From IMG/VR virus record IMGVR_UViG_3300047463_000123, positions 1 to 36,929 of that record: a DNA stretch of 36,929 nt; one strand, 5' to 3'. A program made the translations under genes and the position numbers. Shown in pieces: positions 3 to 36,028 of this stretch (positions are counted from its first letter, which is position 1; each line of letters opens with the position of its first letter). Under the pieces are notes generated by a model, which was not told the origin of the DNA, did not search any database, and was given only the letters and a program-made list of their open reading frames with translations. The DNA is from a virus.

Positions 3-623
3 GCACAGACAGCCTTTGATGCTTTGAAGAAGCACAGCACTATCTCAGATTTTCTCATCGGGCTAGATGACGATGATGCTGATAACTATCCAGAGATTGA
101 TGGAGTAATACGTGATGTGAACCCACGCATCCGTATGAATGGAACTCTCAACCTGCTGGTCAAGAAGTATCAGGATAAGTACGAGACTATCAGCTTTATG
201 GGTGATGACCACTTGGTAAGAACCGATGGTTGGGATGAGAAGTTATATGAACCTATCCGCAAGCGTGGCTTTGGTATCTCCTACGGTAATGACCTATTCC
301 AAGGTGAGAACCTACCTACTGCAGTAATGATCTCTACCAATATCAGCAAAGAACTTGGCTTCTTTGCACCACCCAGATTGATTCACCTGTATATGGATAA
401 CTTCTGGAAGTTGTTTGGTCAAGTACTTGGATGTTTAGACTATAACCCTGATGTCATCATTGAACATATGCACTATATGGCAGGTAAATCTAAGGTAGAT
501 GCTGGCTATATCGAGGTCAACTCCAATGAGATTGGTGACCACGATGCTGAGGCCTTCAGAGAATACTGTGTGCATCAACTGAAAGCAGATGCCATCAAAG
601 TGATGATGAAGGTGGGACAGTGA
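3..623 (+). CDS. Glycosyltransferase (GT-A like), 5' truncated
   Basis: The reading frame is open to the left edge, so the N-terminus is missing; an internal TTG at 24 is not a convincing start. The visible part has an acidic stretch (GLDDDDAD) followed by FMGDDHLVRTDGW, as in GT-A nucleotide-sugar transferases where DxD-type acids bind the metal and sugar nucleotide. About 205 residues are seen. Its stop overlaps the GTG start of an epimerase gene by 4 bp (GTGA), so the two are probably translated together as a sugar-modification pair. The acceptor cannot be read from the sequence; a virion protein, host surface glycan or modified DNA base are all possible. Assignment to the glycosyltransferase fold is likely; the specific family is not certain. 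Confidence 0.65.
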   Translation, partial: AQTAFDALKKHSTISDFLIGLDDDDADNYPEIDGVIRDVNPRIRMNGTLNLLVKKYQDKYETISFMGDDHLVRTDGWDEKLYEPIRKRGFGISYGNDLFQGENLPTAVMISTNISKELGFFAPPRLIHLYMDNFWKLFGQVLGCLDYNPDVIIEHMHYMAGKSKVDAGYIEVNSNEIGDHDAEAFREYCVHQLKADAIKVMMKVGQ

Positions 624-1483
624 AGAAAGTATTAGTCACTGGTGGCTTAGGTTTTGTTGGGCAATACTTTATGGATTATCTTGTCAAAGACAAATGGGAT
701 ACAACTATGGTTGACATCAAAGATGGCGTTGACTGCAGAGACTTCTTCAAGTCTGTTGATTTCCAATATGATTTAGTTATTCATCTAGCAGCTATTGTGG
801 GTGGACGTGAGTCCATCGAGGGTCGTCCACTTGCAGTGGCTGATAACTTCAGTATTGACTCTGAGTTCTTTCAGTGGTGTCTCAAGACTAAACCTAAGAA
901 GGTAGTCTACTTCTCCAGCTCTGCTGCTTATCCTGTATCACTGCAGACTGAGGCAAGACACGTCAAACTGAAAGAGACTATGTCCTGCTGGGAACATATG
1001 TCTATGCCTGATATGACTTATGGTGCATCTAAACTCATCGGAGAATATCTTGCATCCTTTGTTGAGAATGTCTATGTCTTTAGACCGTTCAGTGGTTATG
1101 GAACAGACCAAGACTTGAACTATCCATTCCCGATGTATGTCAAGAGAGCCTTGTCAAAGGCTGATCCGTTTGAAGTCTGGGGACCAGGCACACAGACCAG
1201 AGACTTTATACACATCAGAGATATTGTTGGCGCAGTAATGATGTCACTTGAAGCACCATCACTTGGTCCAGTTAATCTAGGCTGGGGTAGGTCTACATCA
1301 TTCCTAGAACTGGCACAGTTGTGTATGGATGCAGTTGGTTATGAAGGTGAGATTAAGACCAGACCTGATAAGCCTGTCGGGTGTATGCACAGAGTGTCTA
1401 ATAATGATTTGATGTTATCCTTCTATGAACCGAAGATTACTTTGGAAGAAGGTATTGAGATGGCGGTGCGTGGAATTGCCTAG
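620..1483 (+). CDS. NAD-dependent epimerase/dehydratase (SDR family)
   Basis: This 287-residue protein is an extended short-chain dehydrogenase/reductase acting on nucleotide sugars, like UDP-glucose 4-epimerase or GDP-fucose synthase. The Rossmann glycine motif GGLGFVG is at residues 8-14, the YFSSSAAYP segment at about 97-105, and the catalytic YGASK pair is Tyr134/Lys138. Length is slightly short of the usual 310-340. The GTG start overlaps the upstream glycosyltransferase stop by 4 bp, suggesting that it makes the activated sugar for that enzyme. Which sugar is not readable; the family call is secure, the substrate is not. Confidence 0.9.
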   Translation: MKKVLVTGGLGFVGQYFMDYLVKDKWDTTMVDIKDGVDCRDFFKSVDFQYDLVIHLAAIVGGRESIEGRPLAVADNFSIDSEFFQWCLKTKPKKVVYFSSSAAYPVSLQTEARHVKLKETMSCWEHMSMPDMTYGASKLIGEYLASFVENVYVFRPFSGYGTDQDLNYPFPMYVKRALSKADPFEVWGPGTQTRDFIHIRDIVGAVMMSLEAPSLGPVNLGWGRSTSFLELAQLCMDAVGYEGEIKTRPDKPVGCMHRVSNNDLMLSFYEPKITLEEGIEMAVRGIA

Positions 1484-26409: not shown

Positions 26410-26415
26410 TTGGTT

Positions 26416-27018
26416 ATGGATATTAAAAAATCTGGTATAAGAGTCTGTTCTATACCAAACTGCACAGGTAAACAAACCAGAATATATTCTATACACAAAG
26501 TATTCTACTGCGGTATGCACGCCCAAAGACTTCGTAAGTATGGTGACCCTAATCACAAAATAAAATTAGCTGTAGGAGAATATAAAGTTTGCTCCTTAGA
26601 TGGCTGTGAGAAGAAGCATTATGCACATACTTACTGCAGGTTACATCATCAGAGATGGTATAAGACTGGAGATCCAGGACCTCTGGAGTTTATTAAAAAA
26701 CCACCTGGTCAAAGACGTCACTACATTAGAGGTGGGTATGTTGCCGTAACTGACCCTCACAAAAGAAAACGTGATGGCGTTCTAGAGCATAGACTTGTTA
26801 TGGAGCAGCATCTTGGTAGACTGCTAGAACCTCACGAAGAGGTTCACCATATAAACGGTGTCAGGGATGATAACAGAATAGAGAACCTAGAGTTATGGTC
26901 AACAAGTCAACCCTCAGGTCAGCGAGTCGAAGACAAGATAGCCTGGGCATATGAGATAATCGGGCTTTATGGGAAAGAAAAAAAACTTAAGCAAATCAAT
27001 CAAGCCTCCAAAAAGTAA
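26416..27018 (+). CDS. HNH endonuclease with two zinc fingers
   Basis: 200 residues from ATG 26416 (a TTG at 26410 is less likely). Two tandem zinc fingers of the CxxxxC...CxxH type, VCSIPNC...YCGMH and VCSLDGC...YCRLHHQRW, are each followed by GDP. The HNH core is [20 protein letters not shown]. This is the layout of free-standing phage homing endonucleases. It lies between tail genes and overlaps the next gene by 50 bp, as if inserted into the late operon. Confidence 0.85.
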
Positions 27019-28096
27019 AGCAAAAATCGCGTTATATAGCATTTGCCGCGATGAAGCTAAACACGTCAAGCGTTGGTATGAAAGCACCAAGCAGGCAGAC
27101 CATCATATCCTAGTAGATACTGGTTCTACTGACGATACGATAGAGATAGCCAAGAGCCTTGGTATCACTGTTCATCAGATTCATATAGAGCCTTGGCGAT
27201 TTGATGATGCTAGAAATGCCAGCCTTGCGCTAGTTCCTAAAGATGTGGACTACTGCGTGGCGATGGACCTAGATGAGATTATGCTACCTGGTTGGTATGA
27301 GCAACTGCAGAAGGCCTTTAGAGATGGCACAGATCGTCCTGAGTATAGATTCATTACTGCTTGGGATGCAGACGGTAAACCAGTAACAGAGTTTAATGGC
27401 TTTAGAATCCACCGCCGTAATGGTATGAGATGGATATATCCCATCCACGAAGTCTTAGAATGTTATGACGGTACTGAGACTCGTAAGGTCTATAAGTTTG
27501 AGTCACATCACTTACCTGACGGAGATAAGCCTAGAGACTATCTACCGATGCTTATCAAGGCAGTAGAGCAAAACCCTGATTCAAGAAATCTCTACTATCT
27601 AGCACGAGAATACTTCGGGAATATGAAGTTAGTCGAGGCTAAAGAGACACTTGATAGATACCTAGCGGTATCCCAGTTTCCTGCAGAGCGTTCCTTTGCT
27701 ATGAGAATGATGGCTAAGTGTGACCAAGGACAAGAAGAAGAATGGCTACTCAAGGCTATGGAAGAGCATCCTTCCAGAGAATCTATCTTGGCTCTAGCAA
27801 ATTATTATTACAGAAATCAGAGATGGGCAGAGTGCAACCTTGTTGCACATAAGTCCCTAGAAGCTACACAGCGTGATACAGGTTTCCTCACAGAGCAATG
27901 GGCGTGGGGTCATATGCCCTATGACCTTATCGCAGTATCTGCGTGGAGACTAGGCAAGTATGAAGAAGCATATGAGTATGGAAAGAAAGCAGTAGAACTG
28001 TCTCCGAATGACGAGCAGTTAAAGAACAACCTTGAAATCTTTAAGGAGAAAATAGATGGCAAACTTCAGCGATCTGGTAACGAGCGTCCGAAGTAA
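26969..28096 (+). CDS. Family 2 glycosyltransferase with TPR-like C-terminus
   Basis: 375 residues. GT-A catalytic part: [37 protein letters not shown] at about 49-65, and the metal-binding DLD at 100-102 ([13 protein letters not shown]). The C-terminal half from about residue 200 has tetratricopeptide-like helices ([40 protein letters not shown]), which often hold protein acceptors. It is placed in the tail operon, overlapping the next structural gene by 41 bp, so a virion protein is a plausible acceptor. Confidence 0.85.
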
Positions 28097-28955
28097 CCTG
28101 CAGGGATTCACCCTACGCCAAGACCGCATTACCTATCTAGCCAGTGCTATTGATGCAGATGATACTGCCGTCACTGTCGGTTCATCAAGTAACCTTGCAA
28201 AGGGAGTCATCGAGATTGATGATGAACTAATCTGGATTGATAACTTTGATAAGGCATCAGCAACAATGAACGCTATTCCTGGTGGCTTTGGTCGAGGTTA
28301 TCTTGGAACTACTGCAGCATCACACGCTCAGTATGCTCCAGTCTATCTAGCTCCTACATTTCCTCGTCAGACTATCAAGCAGGCTATCAACGATACTATC
28401 AACTCATTCTTCCCTAAGCTCTGGGGAGTAGGTAGTACAACCTTTACCTTTAATGCAAGTCAGACAACATATGCTCTACCTGCTGATACTGAAACAGTGC
28501 TCTATGCCTCGTGGCAGACCACAGGTTCAAGCCTTGAATGGCTACCTATTAACCGCTGGAGAGGTGATTCATTTGCCAATACCACAGCGTTTCCAACAGG
28601 TAATACCATCAACATCTACGAGAACATACAGCCAGGTAGAACTGTCCAAGTCTTTTATACCAAGCAGGCATCACCGCTGGTGAATAATGGTGATGACTTT
28701 GTTGATACTACAGGGCTGCCAGTAACGTGCGAAGATGTAGTTATCTACGGAGCTTGCTACCGACTACTATCCTTTATCGATGCAGGACGTATCAACCTTA
28801 CCTCTGCAGAGGCAGATACGATGGATTCTAAGATTCCATCAGGTGCTGGAACCAATGCAAGCCGTTATGTATTTGCTCTATTCCAACAAAGACTCAACGA
28901 AGAATCATTGAAGTTGGCAGACAAGAACCCAATCCGACTTCACTATAGCCGCTAA
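28056..28955 (+). CDS. Tail or neck structural protein
   Basis: 299 residues with AAGGAG upstream. The N-terminal part has [20 protein letters not shown] and a beta-rich domain (AVTVGSSSNLAKGVIEIDDE), then TIKQAINDTINSFFPKLWGV and further beta structure. Similar proteins occur in phage tail modules near fibres. The precise role (adaptor, tail tube or baseplate-like) is not recognised. Confidence 0.5.
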   Translation: MANFSDLVTSVRSNLQGFTLRQDRITYLASAIDADDTAVTVGSSSNLAKGVIEIDDELIWIDNFDKASATMNAIPGGFGRGYLGTTAASHAQYAPVYLAPTFPRQTIKQAINDTINSFFPKLWGVGSTTFTFNASQTTYALPADTETVLYASWQTTGSSLEWLPINRWRGDSFANTTAFPTGNTINIYENIQPGRTVQVFYTKQASPLVNNGDDFVDTTGLPVTCEDVVIYGACYRLLSFIDAGRINLTSAEADTMDSKIPSGAGTNASRYVFALFQQRLNEESLKLADKNPIRLHYSR

Positions 28956-28965
28956 GGGGAAATAA

Positions 28966-29781
28966 ATGACCAGAAAATACTCATCCATATCCGTTGAGCA
29001 GTTAATCAGTTCGCCTATGGGCGCTGCTGATACCACTATCACACTGGCTGATACTGCTGCAGTTACAGCGCTCCTTGGTGGTGTCACCCTTGCTGCAGGT
29101 AACGTAGACCAGTTCACTATCGCTGTAGATCCTGATACAGCCTCTGAAGAGATTATCTTTGTACGAGCCACATCAGGCTCGCAGTTGACCAGCCTTGTTC
29201 GTGGACAAGCAGGAACGACAGCAACAACACATTCTGCTGGCGCTACAGTTAAGCACGTTCTAACCTCTAACGATTTAGATTACTACACATCTGGGGTAGA
29301 TGCCTCTATCACTGCTGCAGGTACAGCAACTTTGACAAACAAGACTGTCAACCTAAGCAGTAATACCCTTACAGGAACTATTGCTCAGTTTAATACTGCT
29401 CTATCCGATGCAGACTTTGCTACCTTGGCAGGTAGTGAGACTTTGACTAACAAGGTTATTACTGCTCCAACTATCTCAACACCCGTAGTAACTATTGCTA
29501 TCAATGCACAGACTGTTGCATATACTCTAACCGCTACAGATAAGAACAAGTTAGTTACTATCAATTCTGCTACTACCGCAAATGTCACAGTTCCTTCAGG
29601 GGTCTTCTCTGTTGGAGATGTAGTATATGTAGCACGCATTGGAGCTGGCGCTTGTGCTTTTACAGCCAGCGGAACTACCCTTAATGGAACTCCAGGACTT
29701 AACCTACGAGCACAGTATTCTACTGGTGCAATTATCTGTACTGCATCAAATAGCTTTATTGTAGTAGGAGATCTTTCATAG
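28966..29781 (+). CDS. Tail fibre/structural protein
   Basis: 271 residues, Thr/Ala-rich and beta-rich. The N-terminal part resembles that of the preceding protein (SSPMGAADTTITLADTAAVT; FVRATSGSQLTSLVRGQAGT), and the middle has ATLTNKTVNLSSNTLTGTIA and ETLTNKVITAPTI, repeats typical of trimeric phage tail fibres. The C-terminal domain is a small beta-sandwich (VTVPSGVFSVGDVVYVARIG). It lies directly before the Thr-run protein, sharing a base with its start. Confidence 0.65.
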   Translation: MTRKYSSISVEQLISSPMGAADTTITLADTAAVTALLGGVTLAAGNVDQFTIAVDPDTASEEIIFVRATSGSQLTSLVRGQAGTTATTHSAGATVKHVLTSNDLDYYTSGVDASITAAGTATLTNKTVNLSSNTLTGTIAQFNTALSDADFATLAGSETLTNKVITAPTISTPVVTIAINAQTVAYTLTATDKNKLVTINSATTANVTVPSGVFSVGDVVYVARIGAGACAFTASGTTLNGTPGLNLRAQYSTGAIICTASNSFIVVGDLS

Positions 29782-30128
29782 TGGATGTCAGCCTACTGGG
29801 TATTATCAGTAAGCCTAAGATAACTGGTACTACCACTACCACCACAACAACTACTACAACTACCACTACCACCACGACCACTACTACAGCCGCGCCTACA
29901 ACAACAACCACTACAACAACTGCTGCTCCTACTACTACAACTACTACAACTACAGCACCACCAGTAACTACGTGGTACTGCAGTTCTACATTTAGAGATG
30001 CGTATGGGAACTTCTTTTATGATAGATGGACAAGCGAATCTGATGTATCAAATTACGTATGCGATTCTTACACAACAACCTGCTCATCAACTGGATACCC
30101 AAGTTACCCAAGTATAATACCCTGCTAG
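29781..30128 (+). CDS. Mucin-like threonine-run protein
   Basis: 115 residues, GTG start overlapping the previous stop by one base. Residues 17-36 are 20 consecutive Thr, then AAP, 8 Thr, AAP, 8 Thr, APP and VTT. A globular-looking C-terminal part follows (WYCSSTFRDAYGNFFYDRWT) with four Cys at 67, 94, 101 and 115 that could form two disulfides. Long Thr runs broken by Pro are the classic substrate of O-glycosylation in mucins. A polypeptide GlcNAc-transferase-like gene lies about 200 bp downstream, and a family 2 glycosyltransferase lies upstream. Probably a displayed tail protein. See findings. Confidence 0.7.
   Translation: MDVSLLGIISKPKITGTTTTTTTTTTTTTTTTTTTTAAPTTTTTTTTAAPTTTTTTTTAPPVTTWYCSSTFRDAYGNFFYDRWTSESDVSNYVCDSYTTTCSSTGYPSYPSIIPC
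29829..29954 (+). repeat. Low-complexity threonine-codon tract
   Basis: About 126 bp made mainly of ACN triplets with mixed third bases (ACT, ACC, ACA, some ACG), encoding Thr runs broken by GCN-GCN-CCN. The mixed codons show it is not a pure microsatellite and suggest selection for the Thr runs. It is still prone to slippage, so run length may vary between relatives. Confidence 0.7.
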
Positions 30129-30137
30129 TATTTATTT

Positions 30138-30332
30138 ATGGCAGATGTTAAACCCTGGGATATGATAAATGGCGCTCCTCGTGCGTCTAAAGAAGAGACC
30201 GCAAGGAGATTTGCTATATGTCAGGAATGTCCTGAAATAGTAGAACTAACCTCAACCTGCAAAAAGTGTGGCTGTTTTATGTATGCCAAAACTAAATTAA
30301 AGGATGCTACCTGTCCACTAGGTAAGTGGTAA
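30138..30332 (+). CDS. Zinc-ribbon protein, often found beside glycosyltransferases
   Basis: 64 residues: RRFAICQECPEIVELTSTCK, then CGCFMYAKTKLKDATCPLGK. The CxxC...CxxCGCFM...KDATCPLGKW pattern is recalled from environmental phage and bacterial mini proteins next to glycosyltransferases. Five Cys are available for zinc. Its stop shares a base with the transferase start (TAATG), so the two are translated together. It may be an accessory to the transferase; role unproven. Confidence 0.6.
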   Translation: MADVKPWDMINGAPRASKEETARRFAICQECPEIVELTSTCKKCGCFMYAKTKLKDATCPLGKW

Positions 30333-31222
30333 TGGCTTCGATATTTGTACAGATAGCCTCATATCACGACTTTGAATTGGCTAAGACAGTCTATGACTGC
30401 GTCAATAAGAGTAGCGGTAAACATCAGATTTGTTTTGGGATACATAACAATTTCAGAGAAGATAATCAGATATTCCTGCCGCTGGTACCCAATACTAAAA
30501 TCAAAGAGAGCAAGGCTCCAGAGAACATCGGAGTAGGCATCTCTAGGTCTATAGCAAATAAACTATATGACGGGCAGGACTACTATCTGCAGGTAGATTC
30601 TCATACTAGATTCTACCCACATTGGGATGATGAACTTGTCCGTAATATCAAGCAAGCAGAATCTGACAAGCCTCTTATCAGCGCCTATCCTGCATCGTAT
30701 ACTTACGATAGTAACCTTCAAGAACGATGCGAGTTTGATAGATCTGTAACTGAGGTTTGTTTTCAAGAAAATACTGGACAGTTTGAACAAAGCCTTATCC
30801 CGCATCAGCGGGCTGTAGCACATAAAGGAACTGGCAAGAATAAATCTATCTCTGCTGGGTTTATATTCAGCACTGGAGCCTATGCAGAACTTGGCTTTAA
30901 TGAGAAGATTATGTTCTGGGGTGAAGAGATACTCACCGCAGCTAGAGCATTTACTAACGGCTTTGACCTATTACTGCCAGACAAGCAATATATCTATCAT
31001 CTTTACTATGATCATTCAGCACCATTCCAGAAGAACTGGCGTAGGCATATTTGGCAAGACTTCCCAGAGGAATATCAAAAAATAGATGCTGAATCTAAGA
31101 AGTTAGTCTTTGAGATATTCGATAAAGAAATCATCGGACCAAAGGAATTAGGTTCAGTACGAACGCTTAGTGAGTATGGACAATACGCTGGTCTAGATTT
31201 TAAGGCAAGGAAAGTACTCTAA
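30332..31222 (+). CDS. Polypeptide GlcNAc-transferase-like glycosyltransferase (GT60/PF11397-like)
   Basis: 296 residues from ATG 30332 (TAATG with previous stop). N-terminal ASIFVQIASYHDFELAKTV starts the GT-A fold; the metal-binding motif is QVDSHTRFYPHWD with Asp89-Ser-His91; the later MFWGEEILTAARAFTNGFDL and a following HLYYDH complete the pattern recalled for the GlcNAc family (PF11397, GT60). Eukaryotic members attach GlcNAc to Ser/Thr or hydroxyproline on proteins, including mucins of trypanosomatids. Here the enzyme lies beside a Thr-run protein. The family match is from pattern recall. A different sugar donor or acceptor is possible. Confidence 0.75.
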   Translation: MASIFVQIASYHDFELAKTVYDCVNKSSGKHQICFGIHNNFREDNQIFLPLVPNTKIKESKAPENIGVGISRSIANKLYDGQDYYLQVDSHTRFYPHWDDELVRNIKQAESDKPLISAYPASYTYDSNLQERCEFDRSVTEVCFQENTGQFEQSLIPHQRAVAHKGTGKNKSISAGFIFSTGAYAELGFNEKIMFWGEEILTAARAFTNGFDLLLPDKQYIYHLYYDHSAPFQKNWRRHIWQDFPEEYQKIDAESKKLVFEIFDKEIIGPKELGSVRTLSEYGQYAGLDFKARKVL

Positions 31223-31237
31223 GAAACAAGGAGAGCA

Positions 31238-33148
31238 ATGGTCGACTACGACATTACAGAGGGTATCCCCGTACCTATTTCTAACCCGTCGAATACAGTT
31301 TCATATTCTCCTACTGCAGAAGCCTACGATATTGCTATCAATGGACAACCATTCTTTATAGCAGCATCCGATGAATCACCTTATCGCCGTGTCACGGCTC
31401 AGTATCGTAAGCAACAGATTGACCAGACTAGAGAGGCTGGAGAACAAACTCTTACTGGCTGGTGGGTGAGAAGCCAATCATCCTTCCATCAAGGAGCAGG
31501 TATCAAGTTCTTTGAACCACTTCAGGATGAAGGTCTACGCTTCCAGTTTACTGAATCTAAAGGTATTGATATCTGGACCAAAGGACAGGCAACCCTGTTG
31601 AACTCAACAGTGCGCTGTCTAAGTTCTGCAAATACTCCTATCATCATCGGTGCTAATGATGGAACTGATGACTGCCTCGTTATTGCAGATGGAACTGCTC
31701 TGAAGAAAGTAACAATGAGTAGCGATACTGCTACCTCATCTACCTATACTCAAGCAGGAACTCCAGCTACCATCTATGACTTAACAACTGATGGAACTAG
31801 ATACTGGTTTATCAATTCTACTCATATCCATCGCGGTAATATCGGTGGTACCACTAGCGATACTGAAATCTATGCTGCATCTAGCACAACAAATGCTCGC
31901 ATTAGATATGTCAAGCAACGCCTTATTGCTGCAGTCAATAACGCTCTACGTGAATTAGATCCTGCCCATACTGGCGGTGGCGCTATGCCTGCTGCCTTCT
32001 ATACCCATCCACAGACAGATTGGACTTGGACCACTATCTCAGAAGGTCCTGCTGCTATCTATGTTGGTGGCTATAGCCGCAAGAACTCATCTATCTACAA
32101 GATTACTCTTGACCTGACTGCTTCTAACTCTCTTGGATTTCCAGAGTTAAATGTACCAACAGTCACCGTTGACTTACCTGAAGGTGAAATCATCAACACC
32201 TTCGATACTTACCTTGGAACCTACGGAGTTCTCTGCACCAATAAAGGTGTGCGAATAGCAGTGCTATCTGCCGATGGAGATGTGGCCTACGGACCATTGC
32301 TTTTTGAAGGTGAATGCACTGATGTTATCTTCAGAGATAAGTTTGCCTATGTATCAACCACCGTTGGTTCTGAATCAGGTCTTGTTCGCATCGACCTATC
32401 AAGTCCTATAGAAGCCAATAGCCTCATCTTTGCTTACGCTTGGGATGTCTATGCCTCTGGTGAAACTACAGTATCTAACTCTGTAGCATTTCTTGGAGCT
32501 ACAGATCGTGTGGCATTTACAGTTCCTGGTGATGGAGTATGGATTGAATCTTACGGAGTCAAGGTAGCAAGTGGCTACCTGCAGACTGGTTATATCCGAT
32601 ATAACACCACTGAGAATAAAGTCTTTAAGTTCCTATTTCCACGATTTGATTCCACCGATGGTGGTCTATCTATCCAATCTATTGCTGAAAATGGTACTAC
32701 CTACACCATTGCAAACTTCTTAGAAGATTCATCTATCACTGAAGTAGGTATTCCATACCCAACAGGTGCTCACGAGTATCTTGGATTCAAGTTCACGATG
32801 ACTCGTGCTACTGGTGATAGTACTTTGTCACCACTATTTACTGGTTACCAAGTCAAGGCTCTGCCTGCAGTACCACGTCAGCGTCTGATTCAATATCCAG
32901 TTCTCTGCTACGACCACGAGACAGACCACTTCGGAGTAGAAGTAGGTTACGACGGTTCTGCTTGGGCAAGAATGTCTGCACTAGAAACAATAGAAAATGC
33001 TGGCGATACAGTCAGAGTAGAAGATTTCAGGACGGGTGAAACTTACATCGGACTGATTGAAGAGATGGACTTCATCAATAGAACACCAAGCGATAAGAGA
33101 TTCTCAGGCTTTGGTGGAATGTTGATGGTAACAATACGATCACTATAA
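31238..33148 (+). CDS. Large beta-rich tail protein
   Basis: 636 residues with AAGGAG upstream. Repeated beta-strand blocks (TPATIYDLTTDGTRYWFINS, SEGPAAIYVGGYSRKNSSIY, EGECTDVIFRDKFAYVSTTV) look like blades of a beta-propeller. The C-terminal part (YPVLCYDHETDHFGVEVGYD) resembles the end domain of phage minor tail proteins. It follows the glycosylation genes in the tail operon. A role in the distal tail is likely from context; the exact part is not recognised. Confidence 0.6.
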   Translation: MVDYDITEGIPVPISNPSNTVSYSPTAEAYDIAINGQPFFIAASDESPYRRVTAQYRKQQIDQTREAGEQTLTGWWVRSQSSFHQGAGIKFFEPLQDEGLRFQFTESKGIDIWTKGQATLLNSTVRCLSSANTPIIIGANDGTDDCLVIADGTALKKVTMSSDTATSSTYTQAGTPATIYDLTTDGTRYWFINSTHIHRGNIGGTTSDTEIYAASSTTNARIRYVKQRLIAAVNNALRELDPAHTGGGAMPAAFYTHPQTDWTWTTISEGPAAIYVGGYSRKNSSIYKITLDLTASNSLGFPELNVPTVTVDLPEGEIINTFDTYLGTYGVLCTNKGVRIAVLSADGDVAYGPLLFEGECTDVIFRDKFAYVSTTVGSESGLVRIDLSSPIEANSLIFAYAWDVYASGETTVSNSVAFLGATDRVAFTVPGDGVWIESYGVKVASGYLQTGYIRYNTTENKVFKFLFPRFDSTDGGLSIQSIAENGTTYTIANFLEDSSITEVGIPYPTGAHEYLGFKFTMTRATGDSTLSPLFTGYQVKALPAVPRQRLIQYPVLCYDHETDHFGVEVGYDGSAWARMSALETIENAGDTVRVEDFRTGETYIGLIEEMDFINRTPSDKRFSGFGGMLMVTIRSL

Positions 33149-34234: not shown

Positions 34235-34618
34235 TTACATAGGCAGAGAGTAGTCGGTATGAAGGAATCCGACGACTTTAATCTTCTTTCTAGTGTCCTT
34301 GAACTCTGTCGTAGTAGGCATCCAGCGTTCTTCCCAGAATGGTTCAGGTACCTTGAATAGGTCAAAGCCCCACTTACCAGCAGGCGTAGAGTTGATATAC
34401 CAAGGTTCCATTTCTCGGAACTTAGCCTCAAGAATGAGGCGGTCATACTTAGACTTCTCAATCAGCAGTTCTGGGTAGTGGGTATGTCTACATTTAAGTT
34501 CGATGTATAAAGCGTGTTCTTCAGAGATGCAGTCAAAGGAATCGAAGGTGGACTCTGATCTAACAAGGTCGGGAAATCTACTCTCCTTCAGATAGTCAAA
34601 GAGTTCCTGTTCTCTCAC
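34235..34618 (-). CDS. Possible PD-(D/E)XK nuclease-like protein
   Basis: 127 residues from GTG 34618. RSESTFDSFDCISEEHALYI is followed by ELKCRHTHYPELL, so the order Asp ... Glu-x-Lys with a preceding strand fits a small PD-(D/E)XK fold. It overlaps the XF1762-like gene by 4 bp. Nuclease activity is inferred; the catalytic set is only partly convincing. A host DNA degradation or self-mobilising role is possible. Confidence 0.45.
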   Translation of the reverse strand: MREQELFDYLKESRFPDLVRSESTFDSFDCISEEHALYIELKCRHTHYPELLIEKSKYDRLILEAKFREMEPWYINSTPAGKWGFDLFKVPEPFWEERWMPTTTEFKDTRKKIKVVGFLHTDYSLPM

Positions 34619-35055
34619 AATACCTTAGCCCATCTTTGTTTTGGCTCGGTTGGTTGGTCTGTTCTTCTAGGCTTTCCGTCGGTATGTTTCCATTGACCAC
34701 CAGATGTTATTGCTTCTAACTTCCAACCAGACGCTTTAAGGCTAGTTCCAGGTTCAGATTGAAGCACATATGTCTGTATCTTTTTATATCCCATTTCTTT
34801 TGCTATACGGGCACAAGCTCCATATAATTTAGAACAAGCATTGGTAGTTCCATCGGTACAAAGACGAGTAACTTCAGCTGTTTTACCGTCATCAGACAGA
34901 CGAGCAACTGGTCTTCCGACTATTGCTACCCCTATCAATACTCCATTTAATTCAAGACCAACACTCCATTTATGTCCTCGGCTTGGTTTATGATGTCGAT
35001 GAAGTTTTGCTATAAATTCATTTGCTGTTTTAAGTGTTATTGGCACTAAATTCAT
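34615..35055 (-). CDS. XF1762-like GNAT-fold protein
   Basis: 146 residues closely fitting the phage XF1762 pattern: ANEFIAKLHRHHKPSRGHKW, GVLIGVAIVGRPVARLSDDG, AEVTRLCTDGTTNACSKLYG, and YVLQSEPGTSLKASGWKLEA. The family is thought to have an acetyltransferase-like fold; the substrate is not known. It is common in actinophages and other phages. Middle gene of a three-gene leftward operon joined by 4-bp overlaps. Confidence 0.8.
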   Translation of the reverse strand: MNLVPITLKTANEFIAKLHRHHKPSRGHKWSVGLELNGVLIGVAIVGRPVARLSDDGKTAEVTRLCTDGTTNACSKLYGACARIAKEMGYKKIQTYVLQSEPGTSLKASGWKLEAITSGGQWKHTDGKPRRTDQPTEPKQRWAKVL

Positions 35056-35464: not shown

Positions 35465-36028
35465 ATGACCACCCTCGTTGGAATCCAGTTAGAAGACAGT
35501 CTCTGCCTGGCGGCAGATAGTCAAATCACCGAAGACAATCTTCGGACCATCAGCACTGCTACTCCGAAGATTCTCCACATCGGTAAGTACCTGCTGGGCA
35601 TCGTCGGTGACTCTCGTCCTGGTGACATCTTGGCTTACAACTGGAAACCACCGACGTACAAAGGCGAAGATCCCGTTGCCTTTATGGGTAAGAAAGTTAT
35701 GCCGTCCATACTCACGGCCTTTAAGGAGAACAGCTATGAACCTTGGGAAGCGACCAAAGATAAAGATTCAGGATTTGATTACCTCATTGCGTTTGATGGT
35801 AATTTATTTCATATCGCTTGTGACCTATCGTTCATCGCGTCGGATCACGGTATCTACGGTCTTGGTACTGGTGGTCAGTTTGCTATGGGTTATCTCTATG
35901 ACCGCGTTACTCGTCTCACTATTGGCAATGTAGAGCAACACGCCCGACGTTCTGTTGAGATTGCATCGATGCTTGATATCAACACCTGCCCTCCTATACA
36001 GTGCGTCATACAAGAAAGGGGCAAGTAA
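35465..36028 (+). CDS. Proteasome/HslV-like Ntn-hydrolase
   Basis: 187 residues. The N-terminus MTTLVGIQLEDSLCLAADSQ has the catalytic set of 20S proteasome beta subunits and HslV. After removal of Met, Thr1 would be the nucleophile, Asp17 falls in AADSQ, and Lys34 in TPKI corresponds to Lys33. Later GIVGDSRPGD and GIYGLGTGGQFAMGYLYD fit the family glycine turns. The length is near that of HslV. It would assemble into a ring protease, or replace a host subunit. No unfoldase gene is seen. The TATAAG box about 15 nt before the ATG suggests a near-leaderless transcript. Confidence 0.75.
   Translation: MTTLVGIQLEDSLCLAADSQITEDNLRTISTATPKILHIGKYLLGIVGDSRPGDILAYNWKPPTYKGEDPVAFMGKKVMPSILTAFKENSYEPWEATKDKDSGFDYLIAFDGNLFHIACDLSFIASDHGIYGLGTGGQFAMGYLYDRVTRLTIGNVEQHARRSVEIASMLDINTCPPIQCVIQERGK

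Follow-up and report, generated by a model that had tools for sequence, protein, structure and literature searches.

The glycosyltransferase families GT27 and GT60 belong to a single GT-A clade with a hallmark DxH motif, and share an activity: the O-glycosylation of serine and threonine residues in polypeptides (PMC7185993). The activity of a GT60-type enzyme from T. cruzi has been assayed on KPPTTTTTTTTKPP, i.e., KPPT8KPP (PMC3769586). Phage virions can also be glycosylated; in mycobacteriophages (Che8 and others; Freeman et al. 2023, as cited in PMC12619734 and PMC11256854), the modification is at the C-termini of capsid and tail tube proteins. In the open literature, we found no prior description of Thr-rich or poly-Thr phage proteins together with glycosyltransferases.

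Here, we describe a locus in which these elements come together. The virus record IMGVR_UViG_3300047463_000123 (36,929 bp; hereafter, "the window") carries a Thr-rich gene beside a GT60-type glycosyltransferase gene. A preliminary description proposed that the phage may build a mucin-like glycosylated appendage with its own transferase; at the level of sequence, this reading is supported by a PF11397 match and by co-occurrence of the two genes. We consider it likely that the locus is a phage mucin-type O-glycosylation module, in which the GT60 enzyme acts on the adjacent Thr-rich virion protein.

Organization of the tail module

The 36.9 kb window encodes a large terminase (phrog_38), a major head protein (phrog_1357), and an SU10-type adaptor. 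The Thr-rich ORF, a zinc-ribbon gene and the GT60 enzyme gene lie together in the tail gene block of a podovirus, in the order adaptor, fibre-type gene, Thr-rich gene, zinc-ribbon gene, transferase gene, and conserved tail gene (Table 1). Two gene overlaps suggest translational coupling: (i) the stop codon of the fibre-type gene overlaps the start of the Thr-rich ORF (TAGTG, positions 29779–29783), and overlap with the upstream gene is conserved, and (ii) the zinc-ribbon ORF and the transferase gene overlap as TAATG, in agreement with the co-translation proposed earlier. The transferase gene begins 198–204 bp past the Thr-rich ORF (originally given as about 200 bp). Its start is likely the ATG rather than the alternative GTG, because relatives begin at MASIF.

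Table 1. Coordinates of the features discussed (window positions, unless preceded by a locus name).
Feature	Position	Strand	Comment
Third glycosyltransferase (phrog_14945)	3–623	+	Possible sugar supply
NDP-sugar epimerase/dehydratase	620–1483	+	Possible sugar supply
Second glycosyltransferase, GT2 plus TPR (phrog_13126)	26969–28096	+	Possible further glycan step
SU10-type head-tail adaptor	28056–28955	+	PF24175, 1.4e-9
Tail-fibre-like protein	28966–29781	+	Likely platform; weak matches to tail PHROGs 38058 and 8780
Thr-rich, mucin-like protein, 115 aa	29781–30128	+	GTG start; homologues in L003–L011
20-Thr run, residues 17–36	29829–29888	+	Mixed ACN codons
Two 8-Thr runs, residues 40–47 and 51–58, AAP between	29898–29954	+	
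C-terminal domain WYC...C...C...PC, residues 65–115	29973–30125	+	
Zinc-ribbon protein, 64 aa (DUF6171-like, phrog_13558)	30138–30332	+	Possible adaptor of the transferase
GT60-type (PF11397) glycosyltransferase; GT-A fold, DxH, GEE, C-His	30332–31222	+	Alternative GTG start at 30326
Conserved tail-module gene (phrog_11667), synteny anchor	31238–33148	+	Homologue in Streptomyces phages
phrog_4417 examples	L277:7491–8429; L485:2501–3409; L487:2501–3358		Next to poly-Thr genes

The nearest cultured homologues of the conserved tail gene are found in Streptomyces phages and in an unannotated record, ct2KA10. Retrieval with this gene first named 76 loci (L012–L087), in which the slot occupied by the Thr-rich ORF could be compared. 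Only two of these loci, both bearing GT60, have a Thr-rich ORF in the slot: L012 (a copy of the window's module) and L080. In the other 74, no Thr-rich ORF was seen there at the threshold given below; the slot holds other fibre-type ORFs. Four further tail-gene matches (L004–L006 and L010), known already from the GT60 search, carry both genes. Stella, a cultured Streptomyces phage, has one 489-aa gene (gp46) immediately 5' of the tail gene. In a separate case (L081:1761–3097), the same tail slot and the zinc ribbon are present, an endonuclease-type ORF replaces GT60, and there is no poly-Thr protein.

On gene position, the Thr-rich protein is most likely a tail part, and specifically a stalk on the tail apparatus, because its translation is probably coupled to that of a fibre-type gene and its slot holds fibre-type ORFs in relatives. 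A reading of clearly lower probability keeps the module but takes the Thr-rich protein out of the tail, making it a decoration of the capsid or else a product that is secreted or displayed on the cell surface. Pfam and PHROGs recognize no virion domain in the protein, and poly-Thr also occurs on capsid and tail tube proteins of cultured phages that encode phrog_4417 (see below); against this stand the genes on either side, one of fibre type and the other the conserved tail gene, and the occupants of the same slot elsewhere (fibre-type ORFs in relatives, gp46 in Stella).

Three other genes in the window were noted. An HNH endonuclease gene (26410–27018) is inserted in the tail module, immediately 5' of the GT2-TPR gene; positions 35465–36028 encode a proteasome/HslV-like protein (PF00227, 24.9 bits, above cut-off), here in a phage genome; and positions 34615–35055, on the minus strand, encode a protein that weakly resembles Mom, a family of DNA-modification proteins (PF25680, E 1e-4, below cut-off).

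The threonine runs are maintained at the protein level

The Thr-rich protein consists of a short hydrophobic N-terminus, a Thr/Ala/Pro stalk, and a small, Cys-containing C-terminal domain. The ORF reads ...GT(20)AAP T(8)AAP T(8)APPVTTWYC..., exactly the 115-residue protein with runs of 20, 8 and 8 Thr split by AAP/APP of the preliminary description. In homologues (L003–L011), both termini are conserved and the Thr/Pro stalk between them varies; some stalks are rich in Pro, as in TTTPPPTTTVAPPP. In the alignment, W65, Y66, C67, C101, P114 and C115 are invariant.

A run of 20 Thr is not expected by chance at ~8% Thr (p ~1e-22). Two aspects of the codons concern its origin. Firstly, the runs use ACT 16 times, ACA 12, ACC eight and ACG twice, and identical Thr codons are adjacent in 11 of 36 cases, matching the expectation from codon usage (0.33); such mixing at background usage shows that the runs are not a recent DNA microsatellite. 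Secondly, the long run of relative L011 has 19 Thr, 16 of whose 19 codons differ synonymously from those in the window. Together, these observations indicate selection on threonine rather than on DNA. Judged from its sequence, the protein has the make-up of a candidate mucin-like acceptor: a low-complexity stalk rich in Thr(Ser), Pro and Ala, under selection at the protein level.

An origin of the runs as a DNA slippage artefact was ruled out by the mixed codons and the conserved run. We regard it as scarcely credible that the ORF as a whole arose as an artefact of low complexity or by slippage and has no selected function: the sequence is indeed of low complexity, and its reading frame is confirmed by homology only, but the codons are mixed at background usage, the run is kept despite the 16/19 synonymous differences, and the N- and C-terminal parts and the overlap with the upstream gene are conserved.

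A GT60-type transferase with a predicted fold close to mucin-type GalNAc-transferases

The transferase matches PF11397 with 133.8 bits, against a cut-off of 21 (E=1.3e-38), and phrog_24687 ("glycosyltransferase") at 2.5e-29, bearing out its proposed placement in the PF11397/GT60 family. Across 38 diverse sequences, D89, H91, G197, E199 and H223 are invariant; inside the phage subfamily, E198 is invariant as well. The DSH and WGEE motifs pointed out in the preliminary description are present and conserved. They correspond to features of GT60: DSH (D89, H91) is a DxH metal motif in place of DxD, G197 and E199 belong to the catalytic acidic motif of the GT-A core, and H223 is the C-terminal metal His.

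An AF2 model of the transferase (pLDDT 94.2, pTM 0.92) has as its best PDB matches GalNAc-T2, T10, T4, T12, T1 and the Toxoplasma enzyme TgGalNAc-T3 (Foldseek E 2e-9). Against the GalNAc-Ts, the model scores Z 22.1, with an rmsd of 3.2 over 262 residues; the next-best fold family reaches Z 17.8 over 184 residues. The nearest solved folds are therefore mucin-type polypeptide GalNAc-transferases, which the preliminary description had not foreseen. The modelled GT-A fold is close to that of GT27, a family of the same clade (PMC7185993). A PDB sequence search with the profiles of both enzymes studied here (GT60 and phrog_4417) matched nothing. We took the fold match as no proof of function; with the sequence motifs, it points to a probable polypeptide-Thr O-glycosyltransferase. 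For the GT60 activity itself, GlcNAc transfer to Thr or Hyp of a polypeptide, the support would come from gene linkage and fold.

GT60 genes co-occur with threonine-rich ORFs

To quantify co-occurrence, a Thr-rich ORF was defined as having at least 15 Thr in 30 residues, and was scored if it lay upstream, on the same strand and within 2.5 kb, at loci with at least 1.2 kb of upstream sequence. Loci were retrieved by GT60 sequence; seven of the 50 loci of the window's subfamily were fetched by a poly-Thr pattern, and two by a fibre pattern. An upstream Thr-rich ORF is present in 41/50 subfamily loci versus 4/33 distant phage GT60s, 0/45 bacterial GT60s (at most 31% identical), and 1/402 control ORFs. 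The co-occurrence check suggested in the preliminary description thus came out positive. The GT60-retrieved core alone gives 28/39, truncated loci counted, and three subfamily members with upstream sequence (L116, L120, L122) have no Thr-rich ORF. At loci with both genes, GT60 lies downstream on the same strand in 43 of 44. The Thr-rich partners range from 99 to >1,500 aa and have unrelated N-termini, many with small Cys-rich C-terminal domains.

The zinc-ribbon gene lies 5' of GT60 in 41/50 subfamily loci, and goes together with the Thr-rich ORF (37 loci with both, 5 and 8 with one of the two, 78 with neither). By itself, it is not enriched at poly-Thr loci (9/119 versus 7/120).

The subfamily loci fall into about nine gene-content groups, of which seven have Thr-rich partners. 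(Grouping followed removal of ORFs overlapping the module, since antisense ORFs otherwise counted as shared.) The window's subfamily forms one well-supported clade, so it is as likely that the linkage arose once, in an ancestor, and survived divergence and reshuffling as that it originated repeatedly; the linkage may descend from one ancestral module instead of many independent origins.

Seen from the side of poly-Thr, the link to GT60 falls short of significance: GT60 occurs in 7/119 poly-Thr loci versus 2/120 tail-fibre control loci (p=0.08). As many as 71 of the 119 (many of them incomplete) have none of three glycosyltransferase families, and so poly-Thr does not require the GT60 enzyme. 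Among 50,697 phage records, no cultured isolate has a member of the window's subfamily; only distant jumbo-phage homologues were found. In XacN1 (L088), and with the same layout in RAS14 (L089), the distant GT60 sits beside a gene annotated in XacN1 as a carbamoyltransferase and has no Thr-rich neighbour; these enzymes probably serve a different role.

That layout bears on another conceivable target, namely phage DNA with hypermodified bases. Phage glycosyltransferases can glycosylate DNA (as cited in PMC12619734), and the window holds the weak Mom-like gene. On the other hand, the window's GT60 sits in a tail module, apart from nucleotide genes; among the window proteins scanned, no gene for modified-base synthesis was recognized; and precedent, in both family and fold, is for a polypeptide acceptor. 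We judge glycosylation of DNA to be very improbable.

A second, unrelated glycosyltransferase family beside poly-Thr genes

The commonest neighbour of poly-Thr loci is phrog_4417 (28/119, versus 0/120 tail-fibre control loci), a family with no functional annotation in PHROGs, Pfam or NCBIfam, and no match in a Pfam search. Since this link emerged post hoc, phrog_4417 loci were retrieved independently as a test, giving a set that shares a few contigs with the poly-Thr-retrieved one: a Thr-rich ORF lies 13–125 nt upstream in 46/74 phrog_4417 loci versus 1/402 control ORFs. The AF2 model (pLDDT 94.9) has a GT-A fold, with glycogenin, LgtC and UGGT as the closest structures (Z 14.9), and the sequence contains a DxD-like HDSDI motif and a conserved HNAG. 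On the model, phrog_4417 would be a GT8-like glycosyltransferase. Its fold and linkage suggest that a glycosyltransferase unrelated to GT60 shows the same poly-Thr association.

phrog_4417 is encoded by 74 cultured phage records, mostly from phages of Enterococcus, Lactobacillus, Staphylococcus and Lactococcus. Poly-Thr tracts were present in 11/11 of those sampled, mostly as C-terminal tails of capsid or tail tube proteins: on the capsid protein in 4995_1 (ending GTTTTTTKPTTTTTTTQA), and on the tail tube protein in phiFL1A, VPE25, bIL285 (ending TTTTTTTTTRHD) and Planchet. bIL285 is a prophage of the laboratory strain Lactococcus lactis IL1403, and its orf45 is phrog_4417; two other prophages of this strain, bIL286 and bIL309, have neither poly-Thr runs nor phrog_4417. 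In the Lactobacillus plantarum phage Iacchus, and in MA9V-3, vB-SscS-F1, R3.3, R9.1 and 1_EfsPF36, the poly-Thr protein is encoded beside or near the enzyme gene, mostly unnamed in the record. Six phages without phrog_4417 have no run of six Thr (11/11 versus 0/6, p=8e-5, in a hand-picked sample that includes near relatives). The sequence examined was only about 6–9 kb around phrog_4417 in the positives but close to the full genome in the controls, a disparity that counts against the observed difference arising. Candidate virion acceptors are thus annotated capsid and tail tube proteins in several cultured phages, but with phrog_4417 rather than GT60; for the window, the corresponding evidence is position in the tail module.

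Several further arrangements were observed near poly-Thr genes. In both VPE25 (L486:3228–3383) and Planchet (L489:2242–2385), the last part of the capsid gene, which is annotated for Planchet and a presumption for VPE25, is overlapped by a poly-Thr reading frame in a different frame; this suggests a frameshifted, Thr-tailed minor capsid form. A GT2-like family (L189:9295–10167 and similar) occurs near poly-Thr genes in 13/119 loci versus 0/120 control loci, a post hoc finding. In L192, L220 and L266, phrog_4417 has a CxxxCxxC-motif gene close by or directly following it; judged by eye, this gene is radical SAM-like, and it may provide a further modification step.

The linkage data also bear on whether the Thr runs are mere flexible or adhesive linkers, with GT60 modifying glycan on the host surface, for superinfection exclusion, or some other target. 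Many phage glycosyltransferases act on host polysaccharide, the majority of poly-Thr loci are without GT60, and more glycosyltransferase and epimerase genes lie elsewhere in the window. We nevertheless consider this unlikely, given (i) the tight, same-strand, downstream linkage of GT60 in 41/50 loci, to partners of very different length and sequence, (ii) polypeptide transferases as the closest fold, and (iii) a second, unrelated glycosyltransferase family with the same link.

Proposed mechanism and significance

We infer that the neighbouring Thr runs are the acceptor and that the Thr-rich protein is incorporated into the virion. Under the module reading, GT60 would act in the bacterial cytoplasm, ahead of tail assembly, taking a sugar—GlcNAc, if family precedent holds—from a nucleotide-sugar donor and attaching it to the Thr hydroxyls. 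The zinc-ribbon protein could, speculatively, help by guiding or holding the substrate, and the other glycosyltransferase and epimerase genes of the window (3–1483 and 26969–28096) could supply or extend the sugar. The product would be a stiff, densely glycosylated stalk capped by the Cys domain. Dense O-glycosylation stiffens mucin stalks, which fits a stalk that holds a small Cys domain at a distance from the tail. Such a stalk would be extended and protease-resistant, and may serve in shielding or adsorption.

The pairing of a Thr-rich protein with an enzyme from either of two unrelated families recurs in many phages, including cultured ones; phages therefore probably make sugar-coated, mucin-like virion parts. 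With somewhat less confidence than in the module itself, we lean towards a broader reading: that poly-Thr is a general glycan-acceptor tag of phage virion proteins (stalks, fibres, and the C-termini of capsid and tail tube proteins), served by dedicated transferases that are interchangeable and unrelated—GT60/GT27-like with a zinc-ribbon partner, GT8-like phrog_4417, and perhaps GT2-like—in a widespread cytoplasmic mucin-type O-glycosylation. If true, scattered "low-complexity tail proteins" and "moron" glycosyltransferases become one recognizable system, phrog_4417 gains a function, and mucin-type O-glycosylation, through an enzyme class so far characterized in protists, extends to bacterial viruses. 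Glycan coats matter for how phages adsorb, how they resist proteases, and how antibodies recognize them in therapy; short poly-Thr tags with a dedicated enzyme could be used as tools.

Comparison with known systems

The closest functional precedents are the GT60 polypeptide alpha-GlcNAc-transferases TcOGNT-2 (T. cruzi) and DdGnt2 (Dictyostelium), which have PF11397 and DxH in common with the phage enzyme. The trypanosome parallel drawn in the preliminary description is a real one: the KPPT8KPP acceptor used in the T. cruzi assay (PMC3769586) resembles the phage T8 runs flanked by AAP/APP. TcOGNT-2 and DdGnt2 are eukaryotic enzymes of the Golgi membrane, with GPI-anchored mucins as substrates, whereas the predicted phage enzyme is short and cytoplasmic and, unlike them, has as linked partners a zinc-ribbon protein and a gene of the virion module. 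The GT27 mucin-type GalNAc-transferases provide the best structural match (Z 22), with DxH, the catalytic Glu motif and the C-terminal His; their acceptors, like the putative phage acceptor, are Thr/Pro-rich. The phage enzyme differs from them in having no lectin domain, in its ~14% identity, and in its CAZy family.

Within phages, phrog_4417 resembles the window's GT60 in lying downstream of Thr-rich genes, and differs in its unrelated, GT8-like fold. In the glycosylated mycobacteriophage virions, phage-encoded glycosyltransferases modify virion proteins; in the accounts cited here, no poly-Thr protein is described as a dedicated acceptor next to a GT60. Virion glycosylation is thus a known kind of modification, of which poly-Thr with a dedicated enzyme would be a variant.
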